Origin: a bacterium
GTDB lineage: Bacteria > Verrucomicrobiota > Verrucomicrobiia > Limisphaerales > UBA11358
Length of the DNA: 56,504 nucleotides
Direction: 5' to 3'
NCBI GenBank assembly: GCA_021780375.1
Contig: JAJXYT010000118.1
Span: forward strand, 1-56,504
In this document: positions 4,391-56,275 of the stretch, in pieces
Layout: each line of letters starts with the position of its first letter
How positions within the stretch are numbered: the first letter of the stretch is position 1
The notes under the pieces: model-generated
Told to the model about the DNA's origin: nothing
What the model saw: only the letters and a program-made list of their open reading frames with translations
The model's database searches: none
Position numbers and translations under genes: made by a program

Positions 4391-5176
4391 ATGGAAACGA
4401 CGGCCCCCATCCCTGAACCGCAGGCCGCCGTGCCGCAAACGCCGGCGACGTCGCTGGCCGGAAAATTGTTTAACGTCATCGCCGCGCCCGGTGAAGTATT
4501 CAGCGAGATAACCGCTGCGCCGGCGCGTGCTGCCAACTGGCTTGTGCCAGCGTTGATTTACGCCGTGATCGGCGTGGTTTCCGTGTGCATCATGTTTACC
4601 CAGCCGGCGATTCAACAAACCATTCACGACCAGCAGGTCAAGGCGCTCGACCAGCGGGTGCAACAGGGCAAGATGACCCAGGCGCAGGAGGATCAGGCGT
4701 TGCAGGTGATGGACAAATTCATGGGGCCCACGATGCTGGCGGCTTTTGGCAGTGTGGCCATGGTCATGTACAGTTTCGCCTCAATTTTCTGGTGGGCTTT
4801 GGTGCTGTGGCTGCTCGGACGCTGGTTCCTCAAAGCGCGGTTGGGTTATCTGAAAGTCGTGGAAGTTGCCGGATTGGCTTCGGTGATTCTTGTCCTGGGC
4901 ATCATCGTTGCGACTTTGCTCGCCGTGATTCTCGGCCGGCTTTATGGCGGGCCAAGCCTGGGCTTGTTGGTGAGCGATTTTGATCCAGCCAAACGCGTTC
5001 ACCTCCTGCTGGGCGCGGCCAACGCCGTTTATTTCTGGCACACGGCGGTGTTGGGTGTCGGTCTGGCTAAACTCTCCGGTGGGTCAACGGCCAAAGCCGT
5101 GATGGTCGTCTTCACCTACTGGGCGGCGGCGGAGTTGTTGTTGATCGCCGTCGGGCTGGGACAGTGGACCTTGTAA
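4391..5176 (+). CDS. YIP1 family membrane protein
   Basis: A 261-residue inner-membrane protein. After a Pro/Ala-rich cytoplasmic N-terminus (1-25), 'FNVIAAPGEVFSEI' and the following 'WLVPALIYAVIGVVSV' match the opening of bacterial YIP1-domain proteins. About five membrane segments follow (near residues 50-68, 114-138, 155-180, 205-225 and 235-257), separated by a Gln-rich charged loop at 75-105. The biochemical role of these proteins in bacteria is not established. It lies 65 bases upstream of the efflux adaptor on the same strand and may share its transcript; a regulatory or assembly role for that transporter is conceivable but not shown. Confidence 0.75.
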   Translation: METTAPIPEPQAAVPQTPATSLAGKLFNVIAAPGEVFSEITAAPARAANWLVPALIYAVIGVVSVCIMFTQPAIQQTIHDQQVKALDQRVQQGKMTQAQEDQALQVMDKFMGPTMLAAFGSVAMVMYSFASIFWWALVLWLLGRWFLKARLGYLKVVEVAGLASVILVLGIIVATLLAVILGRLYGGPSLGLLVSDFDPAKRVHLLLGAANAVYFWHTAVLGVGLAKLSGGSTAKAVMVVFTYWAAAELLLIAVGLGQWTL

Positions 5177-5241
5177 AAACACTTACAAATTATAATTTCC
5201 AGAAACTAATTTCCGTTCATCTTGTCTTTATATCTGACGCT

Positions 5242-6606
5242 ATGGCAAAACCTGGTAAACGCCGGAAAATCATCATCTTTTCAGCCATTGGCCTGGTCCT
5301 CGTCGCGCTGGCGCTGGTAGCCGTTTTCAAGAAGCGCGCACCGGTCATCACGGTGCAGACGGAAAAGGTTTCACGCCACAACCTCACCAACATCGTGGTG
5401 GCCAACGGCCAAATCCAACCGGTCGTGCAGGTCACCATCAGCCCGGAGGTCAACGGCGAGATCATTGATCTGCCGGTCAAGGAAGGCCAACCGGTTAAAA
5501 AGGGCGATTTGCTCGTGAAAATCAACCCGGACGTCTATATTGCGTCGGTCAATCAAGCCAAGGCCAACTACGAAGCGGCGGTGGCGGCCAAAACCTCGGC
5601 GGCGGCGAATCTGGAAAAGGCCGAGGCGGACTACAAACGCAATCTGGCCTTGTTCAATATCAAACTGCTTTCGGAATCGGATTTTATCGGATTTAAAGCC
5701 GCGCGCGATGTGGCCAAGGCGCAGTTGGATAGTGCCGAAGATCAGGTGAATGTCCAGAAGGCGGCGGTGGACAGCGCCGAGGAGCAATTGGCGAAAACCA
5801 CCATCCTTTCGCCGCTGACCGGCACCATCACCGACTTGAATTCCGAGGTGGGCGAGCGCGTGTTGGGCACGACCTACAACATGGGAACTTCCATCATGAC
5901 CGTCTCGGATTTGAATCGGATCGAGGCGCGTGTGGACGTGGGGGAAATGGATGTGGTGGGCATCGCGCCCGGCCAGAAAGCCCGGCTGCAAGTGGATGCC
6001 TTCAAGGACCGCCAATTCACCGGTGTGGTCACCGCTGTCGCCAATTCCGCCCTGGGTTCGGGTTTAAGCAGTTCGCTCGGCGGTGGAAGCAGCAGCGGCC
6101 AATCCCAGCAGGCCACCCAGTTTGAGGTCCGCATCCGTGTCAACGATAAGGAACCGGCGTTCCGGCCCGGCATGTCCGTGACGGCGGAAATCGAAACCGA
6201 GTATCGCACCAACGCCTTGACGGTTCCCCTGGCCAGCGTCACCACCCGGCCGATGAAACCGGAGTTGGCGGTCGATCCGGTAAAAAACGGTAAAACGAAT
6301 GCCGTCGTTTCCGCCGCTTCGGGCACGAACGCGGTCGCCAGCACCAACACCCCGGCATCCACCTCGAAGGCCAAGGAATCCTTAAAACCAACGGACGTGG
6401 TCTTCGTGGTGGAAGGCGACCATGTAAAAACCTTGCCGGTGAAAATCGGCATTTGCGATGACAACTACTGGGAAATCACCGGCGGTCTTACCAATGGCGA
6501 GGAAATTGTTGCGGGCGGCTACCGGGCGGTCGGCCGTGATTTACAGGATGGCTCAAAAATCCGGGTTGGCCCGGCCGGGATGGACACCGAGGCGCAAAAG
6601 AAATGA
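5242..6606 (+). CDS. Periplasmic adaptor (membrane fusion) protein of a MacAB-type efflux system
   Basis: 454 residues, HlyD/RND-adaptor family. I chose 'MAKPGKRRK' as the start because the open frame before it overlaps the previous gene and has no fitting start. A basic N-terminus is followed by a membrane anchor (about 10-30), a split lipoyl-like domain ('PEVNGEIIDLPVKEGQPVKKGD...'), a helical hairpin (about 90-180, rich in Ala/Lys/Glu), then beta-barrel and membrane-proximal domains. A linker rich in Asn, Thr, Ala and Ser near 355-390 ('SGTNAVASTNTPASTS') is unusual. It would link the inner-membrane ABC transporter encoded just downstream to an outer-membrane channel, which is not in this window. 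AT-rich DNA with a TATAAT at 5191-5196 precedes it, but no convincing -35 box is well spaced. Confidence 0.9.
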   Translation: MAKPGKRRKIIIFSAIGLVLVALALVAVFKKRAPVITVQTEKVSRHNLTNIVVANGQIQPVVQVTISPEVNGEIIDLPVKEGQPVKKGDLLVKINPDVYIASVNQAKANYEAAVAAKTSAAANLEKAEADYKRNLALFNIKLLSESDFIGFKAARDVAKAQLDSAEDQVNVQKAAVDSAEEQLAKTTILSPLTGTITDLNSEVGERVLGTTYNMGTSIMTVSDLNRIEARVDVGEMDVVGIAPGQKARLQVDAFKDRQFTGVVTAVANSALGSGLSSSLGGGSSSGQSQQATQFEVRIRVNDKEPAFRPGMSVTAEIETEYRTNALTVPLASVTTRPMKPELAVDPVKNGKTNAVVSAASGTNAVASTNTPASTSKAKESLKPTDVVFVVEGDHVKTLPVKIGICDDNYWEITGGLTNGEEIVAGGYRAVGRDLQDGSKIRVGPAGMDTEAQKK

Positions 6607-6614
6607 GCAAGCTT

Positions 6615-6679
6615 GCGTGAAAAGTGAAACGGGATGCGTGAACGCGGCGCCAACCGGCCTCACCTTTCACGTTTCACGC
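6615..6679. repeat. Palindromic element E between adaptor and ATPase genes
   Basis: GCGTGAAAAGTGAAAC on the left pairs with CCTTTCACGTTTCACGC on the right, forming a long imperfect hairpin. It fills almost the whole gap between the two genes of the efflux operon. Confidence 0.6.
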
Positions 6680-6689
6680 ATCAATCAAC

Positions 6690-7448
6690 ATGAGACTGAT
6701 CCTGCTCCAGAACATTTCGCGCCGTTACCAAATGGGCGCGGAAACCGTCCACGCCCTGCGCGACGTGTCCCTGGAAATCCAGCGCGGCGAATACGTCGCC
6801 ATCATGGGGCCGTCCGGCTCCGGCAAATCCACGTTGATGAACCTGATCGGTTGTCTCGATACGCCCAGCGCCGGGCACTATGGGCTGAATGGCGTCAGCA
6901 TCAGCGACATGGATGACAACCAGCTCGCGGAGATTCGCAACCGCGAGATCGGCTTCGTCTTCCAGACCTTCAATCTGCTGGCACGCTCGAACGCGCTGCA
7001 CAACGTCGAGTTGCCGTTGATTTACGCCGGGATACCCGCCGAGGAACGCCGCCATCTGGCCCTGGAAGCGCTGGCGCAGGTCGGTCTGACCGACCGCATT
7101 CATCACAAGCCCAACGAGCTTTCCGGCGGCCAGCGCCAGCGGGTGGCGGTCGCCCGCGCCCTGGTCAACAAACCCTCGTTGCTGCTGGCCGACGAACCCA
7201 CGGGCAATCTCGATTCCAGGACCGGCGCGGAAATCATGGCGTTGTTTGACGACCTCTCCCGGAAGGGCAATACCATCATTGTCGTCACACACGAGGAGGA
7301 CATCGCCAAACACGCCCGCCGTATCATCCGGCTCCGGGATGGTTTGATTGCCAGCGACGAGCAGAAGGTCGAAGGACAAGAGTCGAGCGTCGAGGGCAAA
7401 ACCAGTCCGGCGCTCGACCCTCGACTCTCGACTCTCGACCGGCCATGA
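6690..7448 (+). CDS. ABC transporter ATP-binding protein (MacB/LolD type)
   Basis: 252 residues, the normal size plus a tail. Walker A is 'GPSGSGKST' (about 42-50), the Q-loop region is 'FVFQTFNLL', the signature is '[15 protein letters not shown]', Walker B is '[12 protein letters not shown]' and the switch histidine follows in 'VVTHEED'. All catalytic motifs are intact. It would power the two permeases encoded next, driving export of macrolide-like compounds, peptides or lipids; the substrate cannot be told. The last 26 residues ('[11 protein letters not shown]...LSTLDRP') are not part of the family and are encoded by palindromic element M. Its stop overlaps the next start as ATGA, so translation is probably coupled. 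Confidence 0.93.
7368..7440. repeat. Palindromic element M forming the ATPase C-terminus
   Basis: GGTCGAAGGACAAGAGTCGA on the left is complementary in pattern to CTCGACTCTCGACTCTCGAC on the right. The right arm contains the heptamer CTCGACT repeated in tandem. The element is translated as the last residues of the ATPase and ends five bases before the ATG of the next gene. Confidence 0.7.
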
Positions 7449-8674
7449 AGTTCGTCGCCGAAATCAACGAAAGTCTGGGCATTTCCTGGAATGCGCTGCG
7501 CGCAAACAAAATGCGCTCGGTGCTGGCCACGTTGGGGATTGTCATCGGCATCGTCACGGTCACGCTCATGGGCGCAGCCATTAATGGCCTGAATCAGGCG
7601 TTCATCAGAAACGTTTCCGCGCTCGGCGCAGACGTGTTCTACGTCTCACGTTTCAAGTGGTTCAATAACACCTATGAAGACTGGGTGAGCATGCGCAAGC
7701 GTCCCAAAATCACTCTTGCGGAATCGGACGCTTTGGCCCGGCAACTGACGCTGGCCGACGCCGTCGCGCCGACCGCGGACAATGAAGATTCGGTCAAATA
7801 CAAAAACCGCAGCGCCAGCAGCGTGGACGTCGTGGGCACCACGGAGGCCTATCTGCAAACCAGCGGAGTGGACGTGGCCCAGGGCCGGTTCCTGACCGCG
7901 GCGGATGCCCGGGGCGGCCAGCCAACCTGTGTCATTGGCAATGACGTCGCCACCAATCTCTTTCGCGCCGATCCGCCGCTGGGTGAACGCATCAAAATTG
8001 AAGACCAATCTTTTCTGGTGGTCGGTGTGCTGGAGAAACAGGGGACCATGTTCGGCTACAGCCTCGACAACCGGGTGGTCATTCCTTTGAGACAGTATAT
8101 CGGTCTGGTTGAACGAAACCCCGGCATTGACATTCAGGTGAAAGTCGGGGATTTGGCCCATCTGGATGAAGCCCGGGAGGAATTGCGCCAGGTGATGCGC
8201 CGCATCCGCCATTTGCGGCCAAACCAGCCCGATAATTTTTCCATCAACCAGCAGGATGAGATCGTGAAATGGTTCCATAACCAGACCGCCACCATCGCCG
8301 TCATCGGTTTGTTCGTCACAAGCCTGGCGCTGTTCGTCGGCGGCATCGGCATCATGAACATCATGTTCGTTTCCGTGGTCGAGCGGACGCGTGAGATCGG
8401 CGTGCGCAAGGCGATTGGCGCCAAACGCCGCAACATTTTGCTGCAATTTCTGATCGAGTCCGCCGGCGTTTGCCTGATGGGCGGCCTGATCGGGCTGGGC
8501 ATCGCCTGGGTGATATCGCTGGCCGTTTCGAAGTGGCTGTTTCCGGCAACCCTGTCCGTGACCATTGTTACCCTGTCCCTGCTCGTATCCCTGTTGACGG
8601 GGGTGATTTCCGGTTTCCTCCCGGCCTGGCGCGCGGCGCGCATGGATCCGGTGGAGGCATTAAGAAGCGAATGA
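7445..8674 (+). CDS. ABC transporter permease, MacB/FtsX type (first of two)
   Basis: 409 residues. The architecture is MacB_PCD plus FtsX: an N-terminal membrane helix ('[21 protein letters not shown]', split here by description only), a large periplasmic domain (about 45-280), then three C-terminal helices. The family motif '[21 protein letters not shown]' region, including '[18 protein letters not shown]', couples the membrane part to the ATPase. The start overlaps the ATPase stop (ATGA) and its own stop overlaps the next start, so the three genes form one translational unit. Confidence 0.9.
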
Positions 8675-9933
8675 AATTTCTTAACCCGACAACCTTTTTT
8701 GCCGAGTCCTGGGAAAGCTTCACCATGGCCTTGAACGCGTTGGCGGCGCACAAGCTGCGCTCGGCGCTCACCCTGCTGGGCGTGTTGATCGGCGTCTTTT
8801 CCATCATCGTCGTCATGACCGCCATGCGCGTGCTGGAGCGGGACGTCGAATCTAACCTGAGTCAGTTGGGTGGCCAGACCTTCGCCATCCAGAAATGGCC
8901 GGCCGTCCAGTTCGGCGACCGGTCCGACTGGGAAAAATACTGGCGCCGCAAGGACATCACCATCGAACAGGGCCAAACGGTTGAGGAAAAGGCCACGCTC
9001 GCCGCTGCCGTCGGCATCGAAGGCCAGTTTTGGAGCGGCGCCATCCAGACCCGCTACACCAAGACCGCGCCCACCGTGCAGATGTTCGGTGAAACGCCCG
9101 GCAGTTTCCTCGCACACAACTGGATTCCTGAGGAGGGCCGCGTTCTGGTGGAGAGCGACATTGACGATGCCCGTGACGTCTGCGTGCTGGGCAGCGCCCT
9201 GGCTAAAACCGTTTTCCCCTTCGGTTCAGCCGTTGGCGAAGAAATCAAAATCAACGGCATTCCCTACGCCGTCGTCGGCGTCCTGGCGTCCAAAGGCGCT
9301 TCGCTGGGCGGCAATCAGGATAACTTTGCCATCGTGCCCCTCACCACGGCGCTCGACCGCTACGGCCTGCGCTGGACCGGCTTGAGCATCCTGGTCCAGG
9401 CGCGCAGCGCGGCCAGTTACGCCGATTGCGAAGAACAGGTCCGCAGCATCCTGCGGGCGGCCCGCAGGGTGCGGCCCGGCCAACCGGACGATTTCGAGCT
9501 GTTCTCCAACGACTCGTTAATCGCGCAATTCGACACGTTCACCCGCGCGGTGCGCGTGGGCGTGACGGTGGTCAGCTCCATTGCGCTCATCGCCGCCGGC
9601 GTCGGCATCATGAACATCATGCTCGTTTCAGTGACGGAACGGACGCGCGAAATCGGCGTCCGCCGGGCGGTCGGCGCCAAGCGCCGGAACATCATGGGAC
9701 AATTCATTATGGAAGCGGTGGTGCTCTGTGAAATCGGCGGTGTAATCGGCGTGGTCTTTGGCATTCTCGGCGGCAACGTCCTCGCCTGGTTCATGAAAGT
9801 GCCGCCGGCCATCCCGGTTGACTGGATTGGGCTGGGCCTGCTGATTTGCTCCATCGTCGGCGTCGTTTTCGGAACCTATCCGGCTTACAAGGCGGCGAAC
9901 CTCGACCCCATCGAATCGCTAAGATACGAGTAA
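8671..9933 (+). CDS. ABC transporter permease, MacB/FtsX type (second of two)
   Basis: 420 residues. I place the start at '[14 protein letters not shown]' because it overlaps the previous stop as ATGA; a longer frame begins inside the first permease. It has the same layout as its neighbour: an N-terminal helix at about 35-55, a periplasmic domain, then 'GVGIMNIMLVSVTERTREIG' (about 310-330) and 'RRAVGAKRRNIM'. Having two separate permeases beside one ATPase suggests a heterodimeric transporter rather than the usual MacB homodimer. The two permeases are clearly related but well diverged, consistent with an old duplication. Confidence 0.9.
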   Translation: MKFLNPTTFFAESWESFTMALNALAAHKLRSALTLLGVLIGVFSIIVVMTAMRVLERDVESNLSQLGGQTFAIQKWPAVQFGDRSDWEKYWRRKDITIEQGQTVEEKATLAAAVGIEGQFWSGAIQTRYTKTAPTVQMFGETPGSFLAHNWIPEEGRVLVESDIDDARDVCVLGSALAKTVFPFGSAVGEEIKINGIPYAVVGVLASKGASLGGNQDNFAIVPLTTALDRYGLRWTGLSILVQARSAASYADCEEQVRSILRAARRVRPGQPDDFELFSNDSLIAQFDTFTRAVRVGVTVVSSIALIAAGVGIMNIMLVSVTERTREIGVRRAVGAKRRNIMGQFIMEAVVLCEIGGVIGVVFGILGGNVLAWFMKVPPAIPVDWIGLGLLICSIVGVVFGTYPAYKAANLDPIESLRYE

Positions 9934-9969: not shown

Positions 9970-10042
9970 GCTTTGAACGGCTTTTGTCGGCGCCCGGTCT
10001 AATGCACAACAACAAGGATCTTTTTCAGGAGAAGTCATAAAG

Positions 10043-11758
10043 ATGCGATGGCTGTTTTTCTTATTTTGCGCCGCCCTTGGGCTGGCGCTGCTGGCCTGCG
10101 GTCTGCTGGTGCCCATGCACTTGCGGGCCGTGGATGCCGGCGTTCTGGAAAGGGCCGGCCGGAGCGGTCCCGCCCTGCTGGACGAGGGGAAGACGCTGGC
10201 GGGTGAACAGAAGTTGGGCACGGCCCAAATGCTCATGCAGGCGGCGCGGCTGGAGACATTTCCGGGCTGGGACCGGCTCGAGCAGCTGATTGCCAGCCAG
10301 GCGCGGCAAAATCCGGCGGCCTTGACGTGGGGCGCTGACACCCGCGCGAAAAATCTTTTTCCCGGCAACACCCCGGTGCCGAAAGCCGGCACGGAACCTT
10401 TTACCGACTTCATCGTCCAGCAGAAGAATCGTGACGCGGCGCTCGCCGCTTTAAACCGTTCGCCCACGCTGGCGGTGCGGGAGTTGATGCGCAGCCGTTC
10501 CCTGACCAAAACCGTTCTGCTGCCGCCGTCCTCGTCGGCTTCGGGACAGGCCTTCGACGCAGCGGTGTCGGTTTGCGGTCTGTTGTCAGATGACGGGCAT
10601 TTGACCACCGGTTTAAACCGCCGTATTGCCACACTGGCGGAGCGGGCGAATCAGGGCGGCGATACCAGGCCGCTGGAGGAAGTGCTGATGGATTTCCTGT
10701 CGCTGGGCGAACGGTTCAATTGGGACCAGCTCGTGGCGTTCGTGGCGCAAATCCCGGACCCGGAGACGCTCCACCAACTGGCCGGCGAAGCCCGCGCCGC
10801 CGGGACGAATCTGCCCGTGCTCTTTGCCGCCGTCGAATTATCGGGCAAGCCCGCGGCGGTGGCCGGGTATTTGGCCAAGTTCAGCCAGACCGGTTTGAAA
10901 GACCTCGGCGCCAGCCTGGCGTATGGCGGGGCCGGGGTGGATGAGCTGGCGCAGCGCGGCCAGCGCTTTTACCGCCCGGATTGGGAACGGCGCGTCACCG
11001 CGTTTGCGTCGGTGGGCAATTTCTTTTACCGCGCGGCCGATTTAGGTTTGCGGCAGCCGCAACTGGCCCTCGCGGGCAAGTGGCTCGCCTATCTGCTCGC
11101 CGGATTTTTCCTGGCGGCGGCCATGCATTTTGCGCGTCCCGCCGTTTCCGCGCTGGAACGTCCGTTGCAAGTGCGCGGCTTCCATCTGGTCCGGGAGTTT
11201 TTATTTTCGCTGGGATTCCTGTTGGTGGTCCTGCTCCTGAGCGAGCCGTTTCTCGCCCAGGAGAGCCAGAAAGGGGGATTCTCCTTTCGACTATTGCCGC
11301 TCACGACGGGCGGCGTGGTCCCCGCGGGGATTGCCAGCATCCAACAAACCATCATGAACCCGATCATCCTGTTAACCCTGCTGCTGTTTTTCGTGCTACA
11401 GTCGCTGCTTTACATTTCGTGTCTGGTCAAGCTGGCCGAAATCCGCCGGCAACGAGTGCCGCCGCGTATGAAGCTCAGACTGCTGGAAAATGAAGACCAC
11501 CTGTTCGACGCCGGCCTTTACCTCGGCTTCGTCGGCACCATCATCTCGCTGATTATCGCCTCGCTGGGACTGGTGAAATTCAGCCTCATGGCGGCGTATT
11601 CCTCCACGTCGTTCGGCATCATCTTCGTCGTCATCTTCAAGATCTTCCACCTGCGCCCGGCGCGCCGGAAATTATTGCTGGAAGCTGAAGCGGGAACTCC
11701 TCCTGGAGCCGACGCGGGCTGCGTTCCGTCGGCAACCGCGACAACCCCTGCCTACTAG
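10043..11758 (+). CDS. Unnamed membrane protein with a MotA/ExbB-like C-terminal helix pair
   Basis: 571 residues. A good Shine-Dalgarno sequence (CAGGAGAAG) precedes the ATG by eight bases. Predicted layout: membrane helix 4-27; a large mostly helical, probably repeat-like domain 30-340; then five helices near 343-363, 384-404, 437-460, 490-511 and 515-534. The last two, 'YLGFVGTIISLIIASLGLV' and 'SLMAAYSSTSFGIIFVVIFK', resemble the helices of MotA/TolQ/ExbB ('GLLGTVxGxI...' and 'AL.TTa.Gl.vaI'), including the small and hydroxyl residues that line the ion path. It is separated by only two bases from the next gene, which looks like the MotB/ExbD partner. The homology is my reading of the motif, not a database result. 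Confidence 0.6.
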   Translation: MRWLFFLFCAALGLALLACGLLVPMHLRAVDAGVLERAGRSGPALLDEGKTLAGEQKLGTAQMLMQAARLETFPGWDRLEQLIASQARQNPAALTWGADTRAKNLFPGNTPVPKAGTEPFTDFIVQQKNRDAALAALNRSPTLAVRELMRSRSLTKTVLLPPSSSASGQAFDAAVSVCGLLSDDGHLTTGLNRRIATLAERANQGGDTRPLEEVLMDFLSLGERFNWDQLVAFVAQIPDPETLHQLAGEARAAGTNLPVLFAAVELSGKPAAVAGYLAKFSQTGLKDLGASLAYGGAGVDELAQRGQRFYRPDWERRVTAFASVGNFFYRAADLGLRQPQLALAGKWLAYLLAGFFLAAAMHFARPAVSALERPLQVRGFHLVREFLFSLGFLLVVLLLSEPFLAQESQKGGFSFRLLPLTTGGVVPAGIASIQQTIMNPIILLTLLLFFVLQSLLYISCLVKLAEIRRQRVPPRMKLRLLENEDHLFDAGLYLGFVGTIISLIIASLGLVKFSLMAAYSSTSFGIIFVVIFKIFHLRPARRKLLLEAEAGTPPGADAGCVPSATATTPAY

Positions 11759-11760
11759 TC

Positions 11761-13107
11761 ATGAACCGCAGCATTCTTATCGTCATCTGCGATTTTTTGC
11801 TGTTGAGTCTGTTGACGTTTTCGACGGACATCAATCACATGGCCGACGAGAACACCCGGCCGCCCACGAAGGTCGTGGTCAGCCTCAACCCGGTTCCGAA
11901 CCCCGGCAACGACCTCACCGCCGTGATGAAACAGGCGCTGGCCGAGGAACAGAAAAATCGCGAGCAATTGCAGCAGCAACTGGCGGAGGCCCGCAACGCG
12001 ACAGGCCGGCGTGAGCAGCAAAACCAGCAGTTGCAGCAGCGGGTTGCCGCCGAGCAGGCCAACATCGAAAATCTGAACCGGCAATTGCAGAACAATGCCG
12101 AACAGGCGCAGCAGAAACTGGCGGCGACCGAGTCCGAGGCGCAACGACAATCAGCCCAGGTTGCCGCGCTGCGGCGCCAGTTGGAAAAGCTCACGCAGAC
12201 CAGCCAGCTGGCCCAGGCCGAGAAACAGCAACTATCCAACCAGCTCCAGTTGGCCGAAGTGCAAGCGCATGCCGCTGCCGAACGGGCCACCCTCATGCAG
12301 CAGGAAGTCCAGGTGCAACAGGCCGAAAACGCCCGGCTGACCGAAGGCGTCAAGTCGCTGGCGACCAATTCCGGCCAGTTGGCACAGGAAATCCGCGCGA
12401 ACCGTCCGCTGGCGCCGAACACCATTTTCAGCGACTTCGTGTCCAATCGCGTTGAGGCCGGCATTTCCGCCTGGCGCACCAGCATGTTCAGCATGGACAC
12501 CAGCAAGGACAAACAAACCGCCACGGTGCTTGTCACCGACGGGACGAATTATTTTGCGCTCTGTCATGTGCAGGACACGCCGGTGACACTGTGGGATCCG
12601 GGCACCGACTGGGACAAACTGGCGGGTACGCTGAGTTGGGGCGGGCGACAGGTGCCGCTGAAGTCAATGTCCTTTGACGCCCAGGATCCGCGCGTGGTGA
12701 TGATGCCGGTGACGCGGGCGGACGCGCAAACCCTGGGTTGCAAGGTTTATCGCCTTTCCACCGACCCGTACAAATTCCAGGACGCCGTGCTGGTCGGCGC
12801 CAACGAGGAATACTACGGACAGTGCAATTTTCAGATTGAGATGAACACGCCGCAGTACGTGAAACTGGACCGCAGCTTGTTGAAGGGATTGTTCGGCAAA
12901 TTCAATCCGTCGCGCGGCGACCTGGTGTTCAGCCGCACGGGTGAATTGCTGGGCATCATGGTCAACAACACTTACTGCCTGACAATCCGCGCCTTTGCGC
13001 CCGCCGCGACGTTCGCCTTCGGCAAGGATTTGCACAACCAGCACACCGGCGGAACACTGTCCGAACTTTACGGTTACGTCTTCCAACTGCCGCTGCGGTT
13101 GCAGTGA
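11761..13107 (+). CDS. Unnamed MotB/ExbD-like protein: TM-Asp helix, coiled coil, probable trypsin-like domain
   Basis: 448 residues. Residues 5-21 form one membrane helix, 'ILIVICDFLLLSLLTFS', with Asp11 placed as in ExbD and MotB; compare 'LIDVLIVLLIFLLV' in the ExbD encoded at 18035-18454. Residues 55-210 are a long Gln/Ala/Glu-rich coiled coil. Residues 215-448 look like a trypsin-type beta-barrel: 'NYFALCHVQDTP' around His269, 'DAQDPRVVMMPV' around Asp309, and 'PSRGDLVFSRTGELLGIM', where Ser384 sits where HtrA proteases have 'NSGGPLLNxxGEVIGI'. Those three residues could be a catalytic triad or a degenerate one. Both the fold and the pairing with the upstream gene are inferences. No OmpA-type peptidoglycan-binding domain is present. 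Confidence 0.6.
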   Translation: MNRSILIVICDFLLLSLLTFSTDINHMADENTRPPTKVVVSLNPVPNPGNDLTAVMKQALAEEQKNREQLQQQLAEARNATGRREQQNQQLQQRVAAEQANIENLNRQLQNNAEQAQQKLAATESEAQRQSAQVAALRRQLEKLTQTSQLAQAEKQQLSNQLQLAEVQAHAAAERATLMQQEVQVQQAENARLTEGVKSLATNSGQLAQEIRANRPLAPNTIFSDFVSNRVEAGISAWRTSMFSMDTSKDKQTATVLVTDGTNYFALCHVQDTPVTLWDPGTDWDKLAGTLSWGGRQVPLKSMSFDAQDPRVVMMPVTRADAQTLGCKVYRLSTDPYKFQDAVLVGANEEYYGQCNFQIEMNTPQYVKLDRSLLKGLFGKFNPSRGDLVFSRTGELLGIMVNNTYCLTIRAFAPAATFAFGKDLHNQHTGGTLSELYGYVFQLPLRLQ

Positions 13108-18034: not shown

Positions 18035-18454
18035 TTACGGTTTGGCCGTTTCCTTGGTGTAAGCAACCAGGTTTTTGATTTTGGCCTTGGCGGCGGCATC
18101 GCGCACTTGCACCACTTTTCCCCAGGGCGCCTTTTCATCGGCGTTGATGGCCAGGACGAGCTTGGGATTTTTTTCGGCGCGCGAAATCAGATCACTCTGC
18201 AATTGCTCGAACGTCACCGGCAATTTTTCAAGGTAATAAACGCCGTTGGAATCAATGCTCACCACGAACGGCGGGTTCTCGTTCGCCCCCTCCTTTTTGG
18301 CTTGAGACGATTCGGGCAACTGCAGTTTCAAGGCCGCCTGCTGCTTGAACGTCGTCGTCACCAGGAGGAAAATCAGCAGCACGATCAGCACGTCAATCAG
18401 CGCGACGATGATGACGGCGGGCGTGGTGCGGCGTTTGCGAACGAAGAAGCGCAT
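18035..18454 (-). CDS. exbD: ExbD/TolR-family biopolymer transport protein
   Basis: 139 residues. A basic N-terminus precedes one membrane helix, 'IIVALIDVLIVLLIFLLVTT', with the essential proton-carrying aspartate at position 21. The periplasmic part has the ExbD pattern 'VVSIDSNGVYYLEKLPVTFEQL' split here, then 'LVLAINADEKAPWGKVVQVRDAA'. With ExbB it uses the proton gradient to drive the TonB-like protein. It is the last gene of the tonB-exbB-exbD set, separated from exbB by palindromic element F1. Confidence 0.92.
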   Translation of the reverse strand: MRFFVRKRRTTPAVIIVALIDVLIVLLIFLLVTTTFKQQAALKLQLPESSQAKKEGANENPPFVVSIDSNGVYYLEKLPVTFEQLQSDLISRAEKNPKLVLAINADEKAPWGKVVQVRDAAAKAKIKNLVAYTKETAKP

Positions 18455-18461
18455 GGGGCTC

Positions 18462-18590
18462 GTTAAAGGGGTGATTGGTTAAAGGAGTTGAATGAGTGAT
18501 TGGTTGAACGAGTCGAGATGCAGCAGAAAAAAGCACACCGCGAACCCAACCTGTTTAACTTGTTTGACCAGTTGCTCATTTAACCAACTC
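18462..18590. repeat. Palindromic element F1, also encoding the end of ExbB
   Basis: GATTGGTTAAAGGAGTTGAA and related units on the left are mirrored by CTCATTTAACCAACTC on the right. The minus-strand reading GAGTTGGTTAAATGA at the right edge supplies the last residues and stop codon of exbB. A second copy is at 23809-23893. Confidence 0.7.
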
Positions 18591-19181
18591 CGATTTCTCC
18601 TCCGCATATTGCCGGCGGACAAAATCATCGCAGAGCGCCTCCATTTCGACGGCGAACACCTCGACTTTTTTGCTGAAATAACTCCAGAAAATCAGCGACG
18701 GAATCGCGATGAGCAGGCCGATCAGGGTCGCGCGCAGAATCAAGGCAATGCCGGCCGCCAGTTTCGCGGCGTCGTTCAAGCCGGTTTGTCCAACGTCACC
18801 GAACACCGTCATCATCCCCGCAATGGTGCCGACCAGCCCCAGCAGCGGCGCGATGCCGACGATGATTTCGAGCACGACCAGGCCGCGTTCGAGCCGGACG
18901 ATTTCATGGCGCGCGGCGGTTTGCAGCGCGTCCACATTGTCTGTTTTCGGCCAATCCAGATGCTCGGAGGCGAGCAGCACCAAACGCCCGAGCGGCGACG
19001 GTTTCCGGTGGCAGATGTGGCAAAGCACTTTCGTATCCTCGCGGGTTCTACAGGCCAGGAGCGCCTGGGTGACTTCCGGCGGCACGACCTTGTTCCAGCG
19101 CAGCGCCAGGGCGCGCTCGACGATGAACGTCAGTCCCACGACCGAAGTGGCGCCCAACAAAATGTAAATGAGTATATCCAT
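18576..19181 (-). CDS. exbB: ExbB/TolQ/MotA-family proton channel protein
   Basis: 201 residues. I chose 'MDILIYILLG' as start: an AGGAAG ribosome site lies six to seven bases upstream, and the longer frame has no signal. Helix 1 is residues 3-22; helices 2 and 3 are 'VLEIIVGIAPLLGLVGTIAG' (about 103-122) and 'IALILRATLIGLLIAIPSLI' (about 145-165), carrying the family's conserved Gly-Thr and Ala/Ile-Pro positions. A cytoplasmic 'CHICHRK' with two cysteines near residue 50 is unusual for ExbB. The last residues, 'SELVK', and the stop come from repeat F1. Confidence 0.92.
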   Translation of the reverse strand: MDILIYILLGATSVVGLTFIVERALALRWNKVVPPEVTQALLACRTREDTKVLCHICHRKPSPLGRLVLLASEHLDWPKTDNVDALQTAARHEIVRLERGLVVLEIIVGIAPLLGLVGTIAGMMTVFGDVGQTGLNDAAKLAAGIALILRATLIGLLIAIPSLIFWSYFSKKVEVFAVEMEALCDDFVRRQYAEEKSELVK

Positions 19182-19207
19182 AAATTCTTCCTGCCATTGT
19201 GAACGGC

Positions 19208-20143
19208 TCAGTAATAGTAAAACGTGAATGTGATTTCGCGATAATCCAAACCGACCATGGCCCGCATGTCCGACGGCCACTGCGCGTAGGGCGCGGGATC
19301 CATCACCGCTTTCTGGCAAACATAGCCCAACAAATCCCCCACGGTATTTTGCATGACCACCATATCGGAGATGCGTCCGTCGTAATTCAAGTGAAATCGC
19401 AGGACCACTTTGCCGCTGCGGTCCCGGGCGAATTGCCGGCTGTCCAGCAAATCGTACCAGCGCTGCGTCACGGCCTGGATGAAGGCGGCATCATACGCGC
19501 CAAACGGCGTGGCCTTCACATCCAGCGACGGCACCAGCGCCTCGTGCCGGACCCCACCCTCCTGCTTCATTTTCACGCCGGGCAGTTGCTTTTGCTGGGC
19601 GAGCGCCTGGTTGATCGTGCGCGGGCGCGGTTGTTCCGCCGGCCGGGTGTCGGATGGCTTGCCCAGCGTCAAATCGCCCGCAGTTTGCTGCCGCGACGCC
19701 AGCTCTTCCCGGGACGGCTGCATGGTCGGTTGGAGTTTGGAAAAATCCGGTCGCGGGGCGTCCTCGGTTTTCGCAACCTCGGTCTGCGTGCCTTTGATTT
19801 GCGGAACTTGCGTGTCGCGGTTTGCCTCCGGGTTGGCGGCGCGTGAATTCTGGTTGGAATAATATTTGGCGTTCTTGGGCGCTTCGGTGGTCGCCTGGGT
19901 TGCAGGCACGTCCACAAATGTCAATTCGGGCGATTGCGGCGGCGCCGGCGCCGGTTTGATTTTTGTGAAGAGCATCAGGGGCGGCAGGCGAAGTCTTTGC
20001 CACAAATTAAATTCCTTGTCGGCTTCGTAACCGCCCCACGCCAGCAGATGCGCAAGCAGCGACAGGGCAAAGACCCATGCCAGCCGTCTTGATTCAAGAC
20101 GGCTGAACCGCAAGGAATCCAATGGTGTGCCAACTCCGGTCAT
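19208..20143 (-). CDS. tonB: TonB-like energy transducer
   Basis: 311 residues. After a cytoplasmic N-terminus, one membrane helix (about 21-37, 'LAWVFALSLLAHLLAWG') contains the histidine expected in TonB (SLLAH). A Pro/Gln/Thr-rich spacer (about 60-190) crosses the periplasm. The C-terminal domain (about 215-311) has 'AAFIQAVTQRWYDLLDS', 'GKVVLRFHLNYDGRISDMVV' (split by description) and ends in 'FTFYYY', an aromatic end typical of verrucomicrobial TonB-like proteins. It transmits energy to outer-membrane receptors, none of which is in this window. It is the first gene of the tonB-exbB-exbD operon. Confidence 0.85.
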   Translation of the reverse strand: MTGVGTPLDSLRFSRLESRRLAWVFALSLLAHLLAWGGYEADKEFNLWQRLRLPPLMLFTKIKPAPAPPQSPELTFVDVPATQATTEAPKNAKYYSNQNSRAANPEANRDTQVPQIKGTQTEVAKTEDAPRPDFSKLQPTMQPSREELASRQQTAGDLTLGKPSDTRPAEQPRPRTINQALAQQKQLPGVKMKQEGGVRHEALVPSLDVKATPFGAYDAAFIQAVTQRWYDLLDSRQFARDRSGKVVLRFHLNYDGRISDMVVMQNTVGDLLGYVCQKAVMDPAPYAQWPSDMRAMVGLDYREITFTFYYY

Positions 20144-54073: not shown

Positions 54074-54562
54074 CCGCCTCATCGGTTCCCTTCTCCGCAT
54101 CCGATGGGGAGACTTCCGGCGCTTGGGAAGCGCTGGAAGGAATTCGCGCAGTCGAAGGCCCATCGGGTCGAGCGAGTGGGCGCGAGCGAGTCGACGTGTC
54201 TGCAGGACGGATGAGGTGCGCTCCCATTTCCTCGTTTTGCTTTCCGCTTTCAGCATTTCAGCTTTTCCCTGATTGCCGGTGTAGGCCAAATAGCCGACTT
54301 GTCACGATTTTGCAATCAGCCACAATTCTAAGAACCTGGTAAAACAGTTTTCTGCTAAAGCCAACAAATCACGGTTCAGATGAAAAAATGAAAAATGTCG
54401 GCGGAAAGACCGGCCTCGCACCGCCGCCAGTTCAACCAGTCGCCGTCGGCGAATGCCTCTCCATGCCACTTCCACCTGACCAACCCAGGCAATAGATTTA
54501 AATTTTTCTCCCGCATCACCGGTTAAATCAGCAAATCAACACCTTGAGAAAATCCAAAACGC
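54074..54562. other. Gene-free stretch upstream of the SUMF1 gene
   Basis: No convincing gene. It contains a tandem-like CTTTCCGCTTTCAGCATTTC segment near 54238-54268 of the kind seen in intergenic repeats of related genomes, and an A/T-rich part (54330-54395) that could hold a promoter. No clear -35/-10 pair was found. Confidence 0.4.
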
Positions 54563-56275
54563 ATGAAAAATAAAGTTCAGAACCTGCTCCTCGCGCTGGT
54601 AATTCTCGCCGGCATCAAGCCAGCCGCCGCGCAGGGCGCGGCGTTCACCTACCAAGGACGAGTGCAGGACAACGGCACAAACTTTAACGGCGCGGGGCAA
54701 TTCAAATTTGCACTTGTCACCAGCACCAACTACAATCATCAGGCGCGCGCCGTCGCCAACATGGGCGGCATTGCGCCAAACCAGTTCGTCAGCAGCATCA
54801 GCGTTACCGACGGCGGCAGCGGCTACACGAGCGCGCCGACGGTGACGGTTTCGGGCAACGCGACGGCGCAGGCCAACGTCAGCGGCGGCGTTGTCAGCAG
54901 CATCACAGTGCTTTCGCCCGGCTCCGGCTATTCCAGCGCGCCCGCCGTCACCATCGCCCCGCCGCCGCCAAACATTTCCTACACGACTTTCTGGAGCAAC
55001 GACGGCACCAGCGTCGCGGGCAGCGAACCGGCCGCCGCCGTGAGCGTGGCCGTGAACCACGGATTGTTCACCGTGGTTTTGGGCGACACCACGCTGGCGA
55101 ACATGACGGCCATCAGCGCGTCCCTGTTTAACCAGCCGAACCTGCAACTGCAAATTTGGTTCAACGACGGCGTGAACGGCTCCGCCGCGTTGAGTCCGGT
55201 GCAAAATCTGACGCCGACGCCTTATGCGATCCTGGCCGATAGCGCGGGCAGCGCCAGCAATTTGCTGGGAACATTGCCGGCGGCGCAATTGAGCGGAACG
55301 ATTCCCGCCGGTCAATTGCCGGCCGCGGTGGTGACAAACAATGAAACGGGCCTGAACTTGAGCGGCGCGTTCAGCGGCAATGGCGGCGGGTTGACCAATG
55401 TGACGGCTGTGACGGCTGTGACGGCTGCGACGCTGGCGATTCCCGGCGGCATGGCGCTGATCCCGGCGGGGACGTTCACAATGGGGGACAATCTGGACGG
55501 CGAGGGCGATGCCATTCCCACGAACATCACGGTGTCGGCCTTTTACATGGACGTGAATCTGGTGAGCTATGCGCAATGGCAGTCGGTGTATTTTTGGGCG
55601 ACGAACCACGGGTATGGCTTTGTGGATGCCGGCGCGGGCAAGGCGGCGAATCATCCGGTGCAGACGGTGGACTGGTATGACTGTGTGAAGTGGAGCAATG
55701 CGCGGTCTCAGCAGGCGGGTTTGACGCCGGTGTATTACACGGATGCGGGCTTCACGCAGGTTTATACGAATGGGGAGGTGACGCCGTATATGAATTTGTC
55801 GGCGGCTGGGTATCGGTTGCCGACGGAAGCGGAATGGGAGAAGGCGGCGCGGGGCGGGTTGAGCGGGCAACGGTTTCCGTGGGGCAACGTCATCACGGAG
55901 AATCTGGCCAACTACGACGGAAGCACCACCTCTTATAGCTATGATTTGGGGCCGAACGGCTACAACGCCGCCTTCACGAACGGAGTGGCACCCTACACCA
56001 GTCCGGTGGGGTATTTTGCGGCGAACGGCTTTGGGCTATATGACATGGCCGGGAATGTCTTCGAGTGGTGTTGGGATTGGTATGGGACGCCCTACGGACA
56101 ACCCACCAACACCAATCCAACCGGGCCGGCCGCCGGGAGCAACCGTGTTTTGCGCGGCGGCGTTTGGAACCTCTACGCCGACTACACGCGTTGCGCCTAT
56201 CGCGGCAGCAACCACCCGGGCAGCAACTACTACGACTTCTACAATATCGGGTTTCGGTGTGTGAGGGGGCTTTAG
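54563..56275 (+). CDS. Secreted SUMF1/FGE-fold protein without the catalytic cysteines
   Basis: 570 residues. A signal peptide (1-23, '[17 protein letters not shown]') precedes a beta-rich part that includes two '[13 protein letters not shown] / [13 protein letters not shown]' units (near 83-140) and '[11 protein letters not shown]', '[17 protein letters not shown]', repeats common in exported verrucomicrobial proteins. From about 295 a complete SUMF1 domain follows: '[13 protein letters not shown]', '[17 protein letters not shown]', '[16 protein letters not shown]', '[17 protein letters not shown]', 'RVLRGGVWN' and 'IGFRCVRGL'. Active formylglycine enzymes have Cys in 'GGSWLCHxSYC'; here it is '[13 protein letters not shown]', so oxidase activity is unlikely. 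It may act as a binding module. Confidence 0.88.
55400..55426 (+). repeat. Nine-base tandem repeat inside the SUMF1 gene
   Basis: GTGACGGCT is repeated three times without mismatch, encoding Val-Thr-Ala each time, with a degenerate fourth copy. Change in copy number would keep the frame. Confidence 0.85.

Follow-up and report, generated by a model that had tools for sequence, protein, structure and literature searches.

Two adjacent genes of a Limisphaerales bacterium (lineage UBA11358, Verrucomicrobiota) form a co-inherited pair, which is a phylum-level system of Verrucomicrobiota without a Pfam family. The genes, here named P1 and P2, lie on contig JAJXYT010000118.1 of assembly GCA_021780375.1, analysed as one stretch of 56,504 nucleotides (the window). 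Both read as real open reading frames (ORFs) on the same strand, with two bases separating the P1 stop codon from the P2 start (ATG), in agreement with the position (10043..13107) and spacing given by an earlier reading made from the sequence alone (the sequence-only reading). The pair is motor-like by its anatomy, while ion-driven work is proposed for it and unproven. Neither protein reached the cut-off for a Pfam family (matches up to an expectation value, E, of 1 considered). NCBIfam returned nothing for P1, and for P2 only low-scoring matches, mostly over its long helix.

Distribution and co-inheritance

In an order-level sample of 293 genomes, P1 and P2 occurred together in 111, P1 alone in five, P2 alone in two and neither in 175, a count that treats both 293-genome samples as one genome set (shared handles) with the match-less genomes listed in part. 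Searched for separately, P1 was identified in 116 of the 293 genomes and the head domain of P2, used without its coiled coil, in 113. One of the five P1-alone genomes (G068) contributes only a weak match of 47 positions. Co-occurrence had been set beforehand as a test of the pair, and the two genes are not mostly found apart.

Among 59 related genomes the pair was identified in thirteen, including that of the window, and two further P1 matches were weak fragments. P1 and P2 are adjacent in all thirteen, and only the two nearest relatives of the window share its immediate flanking genes. Within the genus of the window the distribution is patchy (6 of 36 genomes, window included), so the pair is dispensable there. 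Under an initial, stricter count, the two genes overlapped by four bases in 58 of 134 pairs.

Across the phylum sample, P1 matches were found in 126 of 387 genomes. In other classes mostly only the last three P1 helices match, in frames of about 170-350 amino acids with a few longer, and a P2 relative sharing the start motif lies downstream on the same strand in 20 of 20 such loci. Among 177 distinct P1 cores, from loci picked by searches and not a random sample, P2 adjoins downstream by profile in 171 (match including the N-terminus), and in 161 the match within the stretch read also reaches the C-terminal part. Of the remaining six, one lies at a contig end and five have a full-length P2 elsewhere in the genome. 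In loci L209, L212, L218, L220 and L221, of which three carry an Opitutales or Puniceicoccaceae title, the gene after P1 is one that we take, from its sequence, to encode an LpxA-type acyltransferase, and P2 lies elsewhere. Locus L140 (genome G610) holds P1 fragments only and is a likely relic.

A scan for the motif of the last P1 helix in one genome per species (84,980 species) confirmed 127 relatives. The best 80 of these were titled Opitutia/Opitutales, Puniceicoccaceae, Coraliomargarita, Pedosphaera, Limisphaerales, Verrucomicrobi-named bins, Lentisphaeria, Victivallis, Kiritimatiellae or unnamed bacteria; as a single-motif scan seen through its best 80 relatives, it does not prove restriction to the phylum. 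One bin titled Rhodospirillaceae (L182) carries the pair with a core identity to the query of 66 percent, as in Opitutia bins, and is probably mislabelled or contaminated. The recurrence of the pair across the phylum, with invariant residues, places it beyond chance.

Structure of P1 and P2

The topology of both proteins and the fold of the P2 head described here are predictions. An AlphaFold2 (AF2) model of P1, made with a 72-row alignment that leaves out L140, had a mean predicted local distance difference test score of 90.2 and a predicted template modelling score of 0.84. It places helices at residues 2-22, 339-364, 380-400, 440-469, 490-507 and 515-551 (transmembrane helices TM1 to TM6), with a mostly helical domain at 29-337. 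The conserved core consists of TM4-TM6 and contains four residues invariant in all 72 rows (Q453, Y493, G495 and G525); the motif GTIISLIIAS begins at residue 498 and AAYSSTSFGIIF at residue 517. TM4 and TM5 are joined by a loop of about 26 residues, and the charge pattern fits a cytoplasmic location for this loop and the C-terminal tail. In other classes a short P1 is found (171-233 amino acids in sixteen proteins) which by eye is a four-helix protein, made up of the TM4-TM6 core and one preceding helix; four other-class proteins are long.

P2 is predicted to consist of one N-terminal membrane helix, a long helix and, from about residue 217, a beta-rich domain. The motif ICDFLLLSLLTFS begins at residue 9, and residues 11, 269, 309 and 384 are D, H, D and S, the candidate residues named by the sequence-only reading, all found in their motif positions. 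The predicted long helix is coiled-coil-like and lies where it had placed a coiled coil, and the HtrA-like C-terminal domain that it had recognised is supported by the predicted structure of the head.

Asp11 is conserved in all 68 rows of the P2 alignment and, by profile position, in 171 of 171 sequences. Both counts come without any search pattern requiring Asp; the profile behind the second was built from the 68 alignment rows, and nearby rows are not independent. The alignment leaves out loci L135, L140, L142, L145 and L147, which lack an adjacent P2 or a P2 frame called in full, are a relic or carry a split gene. In L142, P2 is seemingly split over two overlapping ORFs, a possible frameshift. 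Coordinates of these features are given in Table 1.

Table 1. Features of the P1-P2 locus (window coordinates)
Feature	Position	Strand	Description	Basis
Ribosome-binding-like sequence	10027..10032	+	AGGAGA, 5' of P1	Read by eye, without statistic
P1	10043..11758	+	571 amino acids; six predicted membrane helices; channel-like subunit	ORF, AF2 model, homologues
P1 helical domain	10127..11053	+	Residues 29-337; mostly helical, probably periplasmic	AF2; missing in short P1 of other classes
P1 TM4	11360..11449	+	Residues 440-469; conserved core begins; Q453 72/72	AF2, alignment
P1 TM5	11510..11563	+	Residues 490-507; Y493 and G495 72/72; T499 is T in 61, S in 11 of 72; aligns with ExbB GLLGTV	AF2, alignment, hhalign
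P1 TM6	11585..11695	+	Residues 515-551; T522 is T in 52, N in 20 of 72; G525 72/72; aligns with ExbB TxxG helix	AF2, alignment, hhalign
P2	11761..13107	+	448 amino acids; axle-like subunit, one membrane helix	ORF, AF2 model, homologues
P2 membrane helix	11767..11823	+	Residues 3-21	AF2
P2 Asp11	11791..11793	+	68/68, and 171/171 by profile position	Alignment, profile
P2 long helix	11920..12330	+	Residues 54-190; coiled-coil-like	AF2; coiled-coil families matched
P2 head	12409..13089	+	Residues 217-443; predicted chymotrypsin/HtrA fold	AF2, structure comparison
P2 His269	12565..12567	+	45/68	Alignment
P2 Asp309	12685..12687	+	53/68	Alignment
P2 Ser384 to Gly386-Asp387	12910..12921	+	Ser384 37/68; Gly386 68/68; Asp387 67/68	Alignment

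Similarity to ion-driven motors

The P1 core was compared by hhalign with a profile of 27 ExbB proteins (26 from a class sample and that of the window), which gave an E of 0.0027. Residues G498-T499 of P1 fall on the G-T of ExbB, and T522...G525 on its T...G. In a local column-shuffle control, 2 of 300 shuffles scored as high, and the reversed profile reached 11.7 vs 23.1. As a yardstick, MotA of Escherichia coli matched the same ExbB profile with an E of 1.8e-4. By E. coli numbering, the aligned ExbB positions are presumably the conserved threonines of the E. coli motors. These threonines (TolQ 145 and 178, ExbB 148 and 181) lie beside the essential Asp of the Ton and Tol motors, and those of TolQ form a polar ring, as given in excerpts of one paper (PMC12215075).

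Mean column entropy is 1.44 bits in TM5, 1.31 in TM6 and 1.30 in the P2 helix, vs 2.45, 2.73 and 2.17 in TM2, TM3 and TM4. No face of the P2 helix is variable (p 0.83), and such even conservation is as expected for a helix enclosed by protein and not for a lipid-facing anchor.

Several results weigh against a relation to these motors. The hhalign probability of the P1-ExbB alignment is only 11 percent, and enlarging the P1 core alignment to 177 sequences brought no gain (E 0.0031). Profile comparison of the core with a single MotA gave no signal, and a structure search with P1 gave no support for a motor relation. MotA_ExbB (PF01618) was matched by 0 of 72 P1 members at a Pfam E of 0.01, and by P1 of the window not even at E 1. 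ExbD (PF02472) was not matched by P2 of the window at E 1 and is absent from the 25 families listed for 68 P2 members, mainly coiled-coil matches; at E 0.01 this P2 matched no Pfam family. By hhalign, the P2 helix and ExbD share no profile similarity (180 of 200 shuffles scored as high). T522 is replaced by N in 20 of 72 members, and the co-change of P1 522 with P2 16 amounts to one event. The TM4-TM5 loop of P1 is short for an ExbB-type subunit, the cytoplasmic part of ExbB being far longer than about 26 residues. In addition, the conservation pattern could also be obtained from tight assembly without ion flow.

Of the two resemblances proposed in the sequence-only reading, that of the last two P1 helices to ExbB/MotA is thus retained weakly, through the hhalign register, and finds no counterpart in HMMER searches. 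That of the P2 helix to ExbD/MotB holds for its conserved Asp and its layout (one helix with an Asp), which is all that it shares with ExbD because profile similarity is lacking. P1-P2 is not filed as a member of a motor family because the sequence tests that define such families did not recover it. The separate, true ExbB/ExbD set named in the sequence-only reading is present: ExbB (18576-19319) and ExbD (18035-18454), on the minus strand of the window, both match Pfam, and P1 is not one of the three PF01618 matches in the genome.

Comparison with known systems shows the same mixture. Like ExbB-ExbD and TolQ-TolR, P1-P2 is an adjacent, co-inherited gene pair in which the last two helices of one protein align weakly with those lining the ExbB pore, with the two threonines in matching register, and the partner carries one N-terminal helix with a conserved Asp. 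Unlike these, P1 has no Pfam match, a short cytoplasmic loop and, in the window, a large extra domain, and P2 has a helix without ExbD profile similarity, a long helical rod and a predicted HtrA-fold head. The gliding and type IX secretion motor GldL-GldM likewise has a large periplasmic partner; the invariant acid, however, is in P2 here and the key acid of that motor in GldL. Excerpts of the literature describe GldL as having two membrane helices with E49 as this key acid (PMC8986121) and report it as lacking homology (PMC9389320). The Zorya pair ZorA-ZorB shares with P1-P2 a MotA-like subunit and long helical parts. Zorya defence was considered with PADLOC (eight proteins from four loci) and rejected: the four P1 proteins had no match at E 1, and among the matches listed ZorA appeared only over the P2 long helix (E 0.17), the at least 25 matches listed for P2 being almost wholly within that helix. 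In the excerpts available, an mBio 2025 survey of MotA homologues describes proteins of unknown function as well as additions at the N-terminus, among them DUF3450 and DUF2341, and the P1-P2 pair is not described there. Nor was a paper on the pair found among open-licence PubMed Central papers, including excerpts of those on known motors (PMC9389320, PMC12505986, PMC12215075 and PMC8986121).

Proposed function and alternatives

The best single explanation, to which we give an even chance, is that the two proteins assemble into a single complex of the inner membrane that acts like the 5:2 ion-driven motors. We infer its oligomer, ion path, movement and partner as follows. After the pattern of MotAB, ExbBD, TolQR and GldLM, both proteins would be located in the inner membrane, with several copies of P1 around the membrane helices of a P2 dimer. 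Asp11 of P2 would be the ion-binding carboxylate, facing the polar residues T499 and T522 of P1, and ion flow would turn or shift the P2 rod. The predicted HtrA-fold head, often without a full catalytic set, would then grip or release a periplasmic partner.

A Ser/Thr kinase gene gives real weight to a different explanation. It directly follows P2 in 14 of 29 distinct other-class loci (L107, L108, L112, L120, L123, L124, L125, L106, L236, L237, L238, L242, L243 and L245, of lentisphaeral type), identical DNA being counted once (L106 = L235; L122 = L244). The kinase frame, read from stop to stop, starts within a range from 218 bases upstream to 29 bases downstream of the P2 stop. Five of the proteins were read whole (856-888 amino acids); three were scanned with Pfam, and a Pkinase domain was identified in each of them, accompanied in two by an FGE-sulfatase domain; the third, with Pkinase alone, is truncated by the end of its locus. 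The pair could accordingly be an ion-independent envelope sensor or adaptor, in which the membrane Asp, together with polar residues, holds P1 and P2 together. The pseudo-HtrA head would bind a ligand in the periplasm and a signal would travel inwards, its receiver in lentisphaeral-type loci being the kinase encoded next door. The FGE-sulfatase domains, the unproven ion path and the fact that membrane Asp residues can also serve assembly are in its favour. However, the conservation of the P2 helix on all faces and two threonines in ExbB register seem more than assembly needs. Outside those loci, in a limited search with many short flanks, the lentisphaeral kinase profile was matched only weakly, by a partial ORF upstream of P1 that is cut by the locus edge (L066, E 1.8e-9) and by an ORF at the far end of the window (54548-56272) in which Pfam identifies FGE-sulfatase only (PF03781, E 9.9e-50). 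On balance the sensor is a tentative alternative, ranked behind the motor.

In a further alternative, which we consider improbable, the P2 head would be an active HtrA-like protease tethered to the membrane in a complex with P1. The predicted fold resembles that of HtrA/DegP/DegS proteases and the RsgI9 S1C domain, and the H, D, S triad is whole in 37 of 68 members, all among the 48 rows of the window's own class. It is, however, incomplete in 31 of 68 although Gly386 is kept in every row, and is found in 0 of 20 other-class rows; a family-wide protease is therefore not supported. Proteases carry an oxyanion Gly at the position matching residue 382, where Gly occurs in 0 of 68 rows. P2 ends at residue 448, too soon after the head for a PDZ domain to follow, and differs from HtrA/DegP/DegS also in being tied to a membrane pair. 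Membership of the HtrA/S1C serine proteases was rejected, as the chymotrypsin fold is accompanied by a triad that is not conserved. A transporter or flippase, with P1 as permease and P2 as periplasmic adaptor, is equally improbable.

To return to the ion-driven motor, P1-P2 could, with somewhat less than an even chance, be a further phylum-specific class of 5:2 motors in Verrucomicrobiota, diverged past the family library. The axle of this motor would bear a long rod that ends in an HtrA-fold clamp, largely dead as a protease, and would turn the clamp against a partner in the envelope; in Lentisphaeria the motor would work with a Ser/Thr kinase dedicated to it.

Neighbouring genes

Apart from the kinase, the largest neighbour clusters comprise 16 and 14 loci (antisense frames over the pair set aside) and look like shared gene order within clades. 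Upstream of P1, positions 5164-9933 of the window hold what we take to be a MacAB-like set including two consecutive MacB-like permeases. The ExbD and ExbB genes of the window lie with a TonB-like ORF at 18035-20143 on the minus strand.

Significance

Few ion-driven rotary membrane motors are known. If the proposed reading is true, P1-P2 would be a further one, widespread in a little-studied phylum, and its protease-fold clamp would be a new kind of load. It would also provide a test of a single origin for such motors, because P1 gives a weaker signal than MotA does, and GldL reportedly lacks homology. Should it prove not to be a motor, the pair is still a conserved envelope system without a family in the Pfam copy searched, and it may be a new kind of cell-envelope machine.
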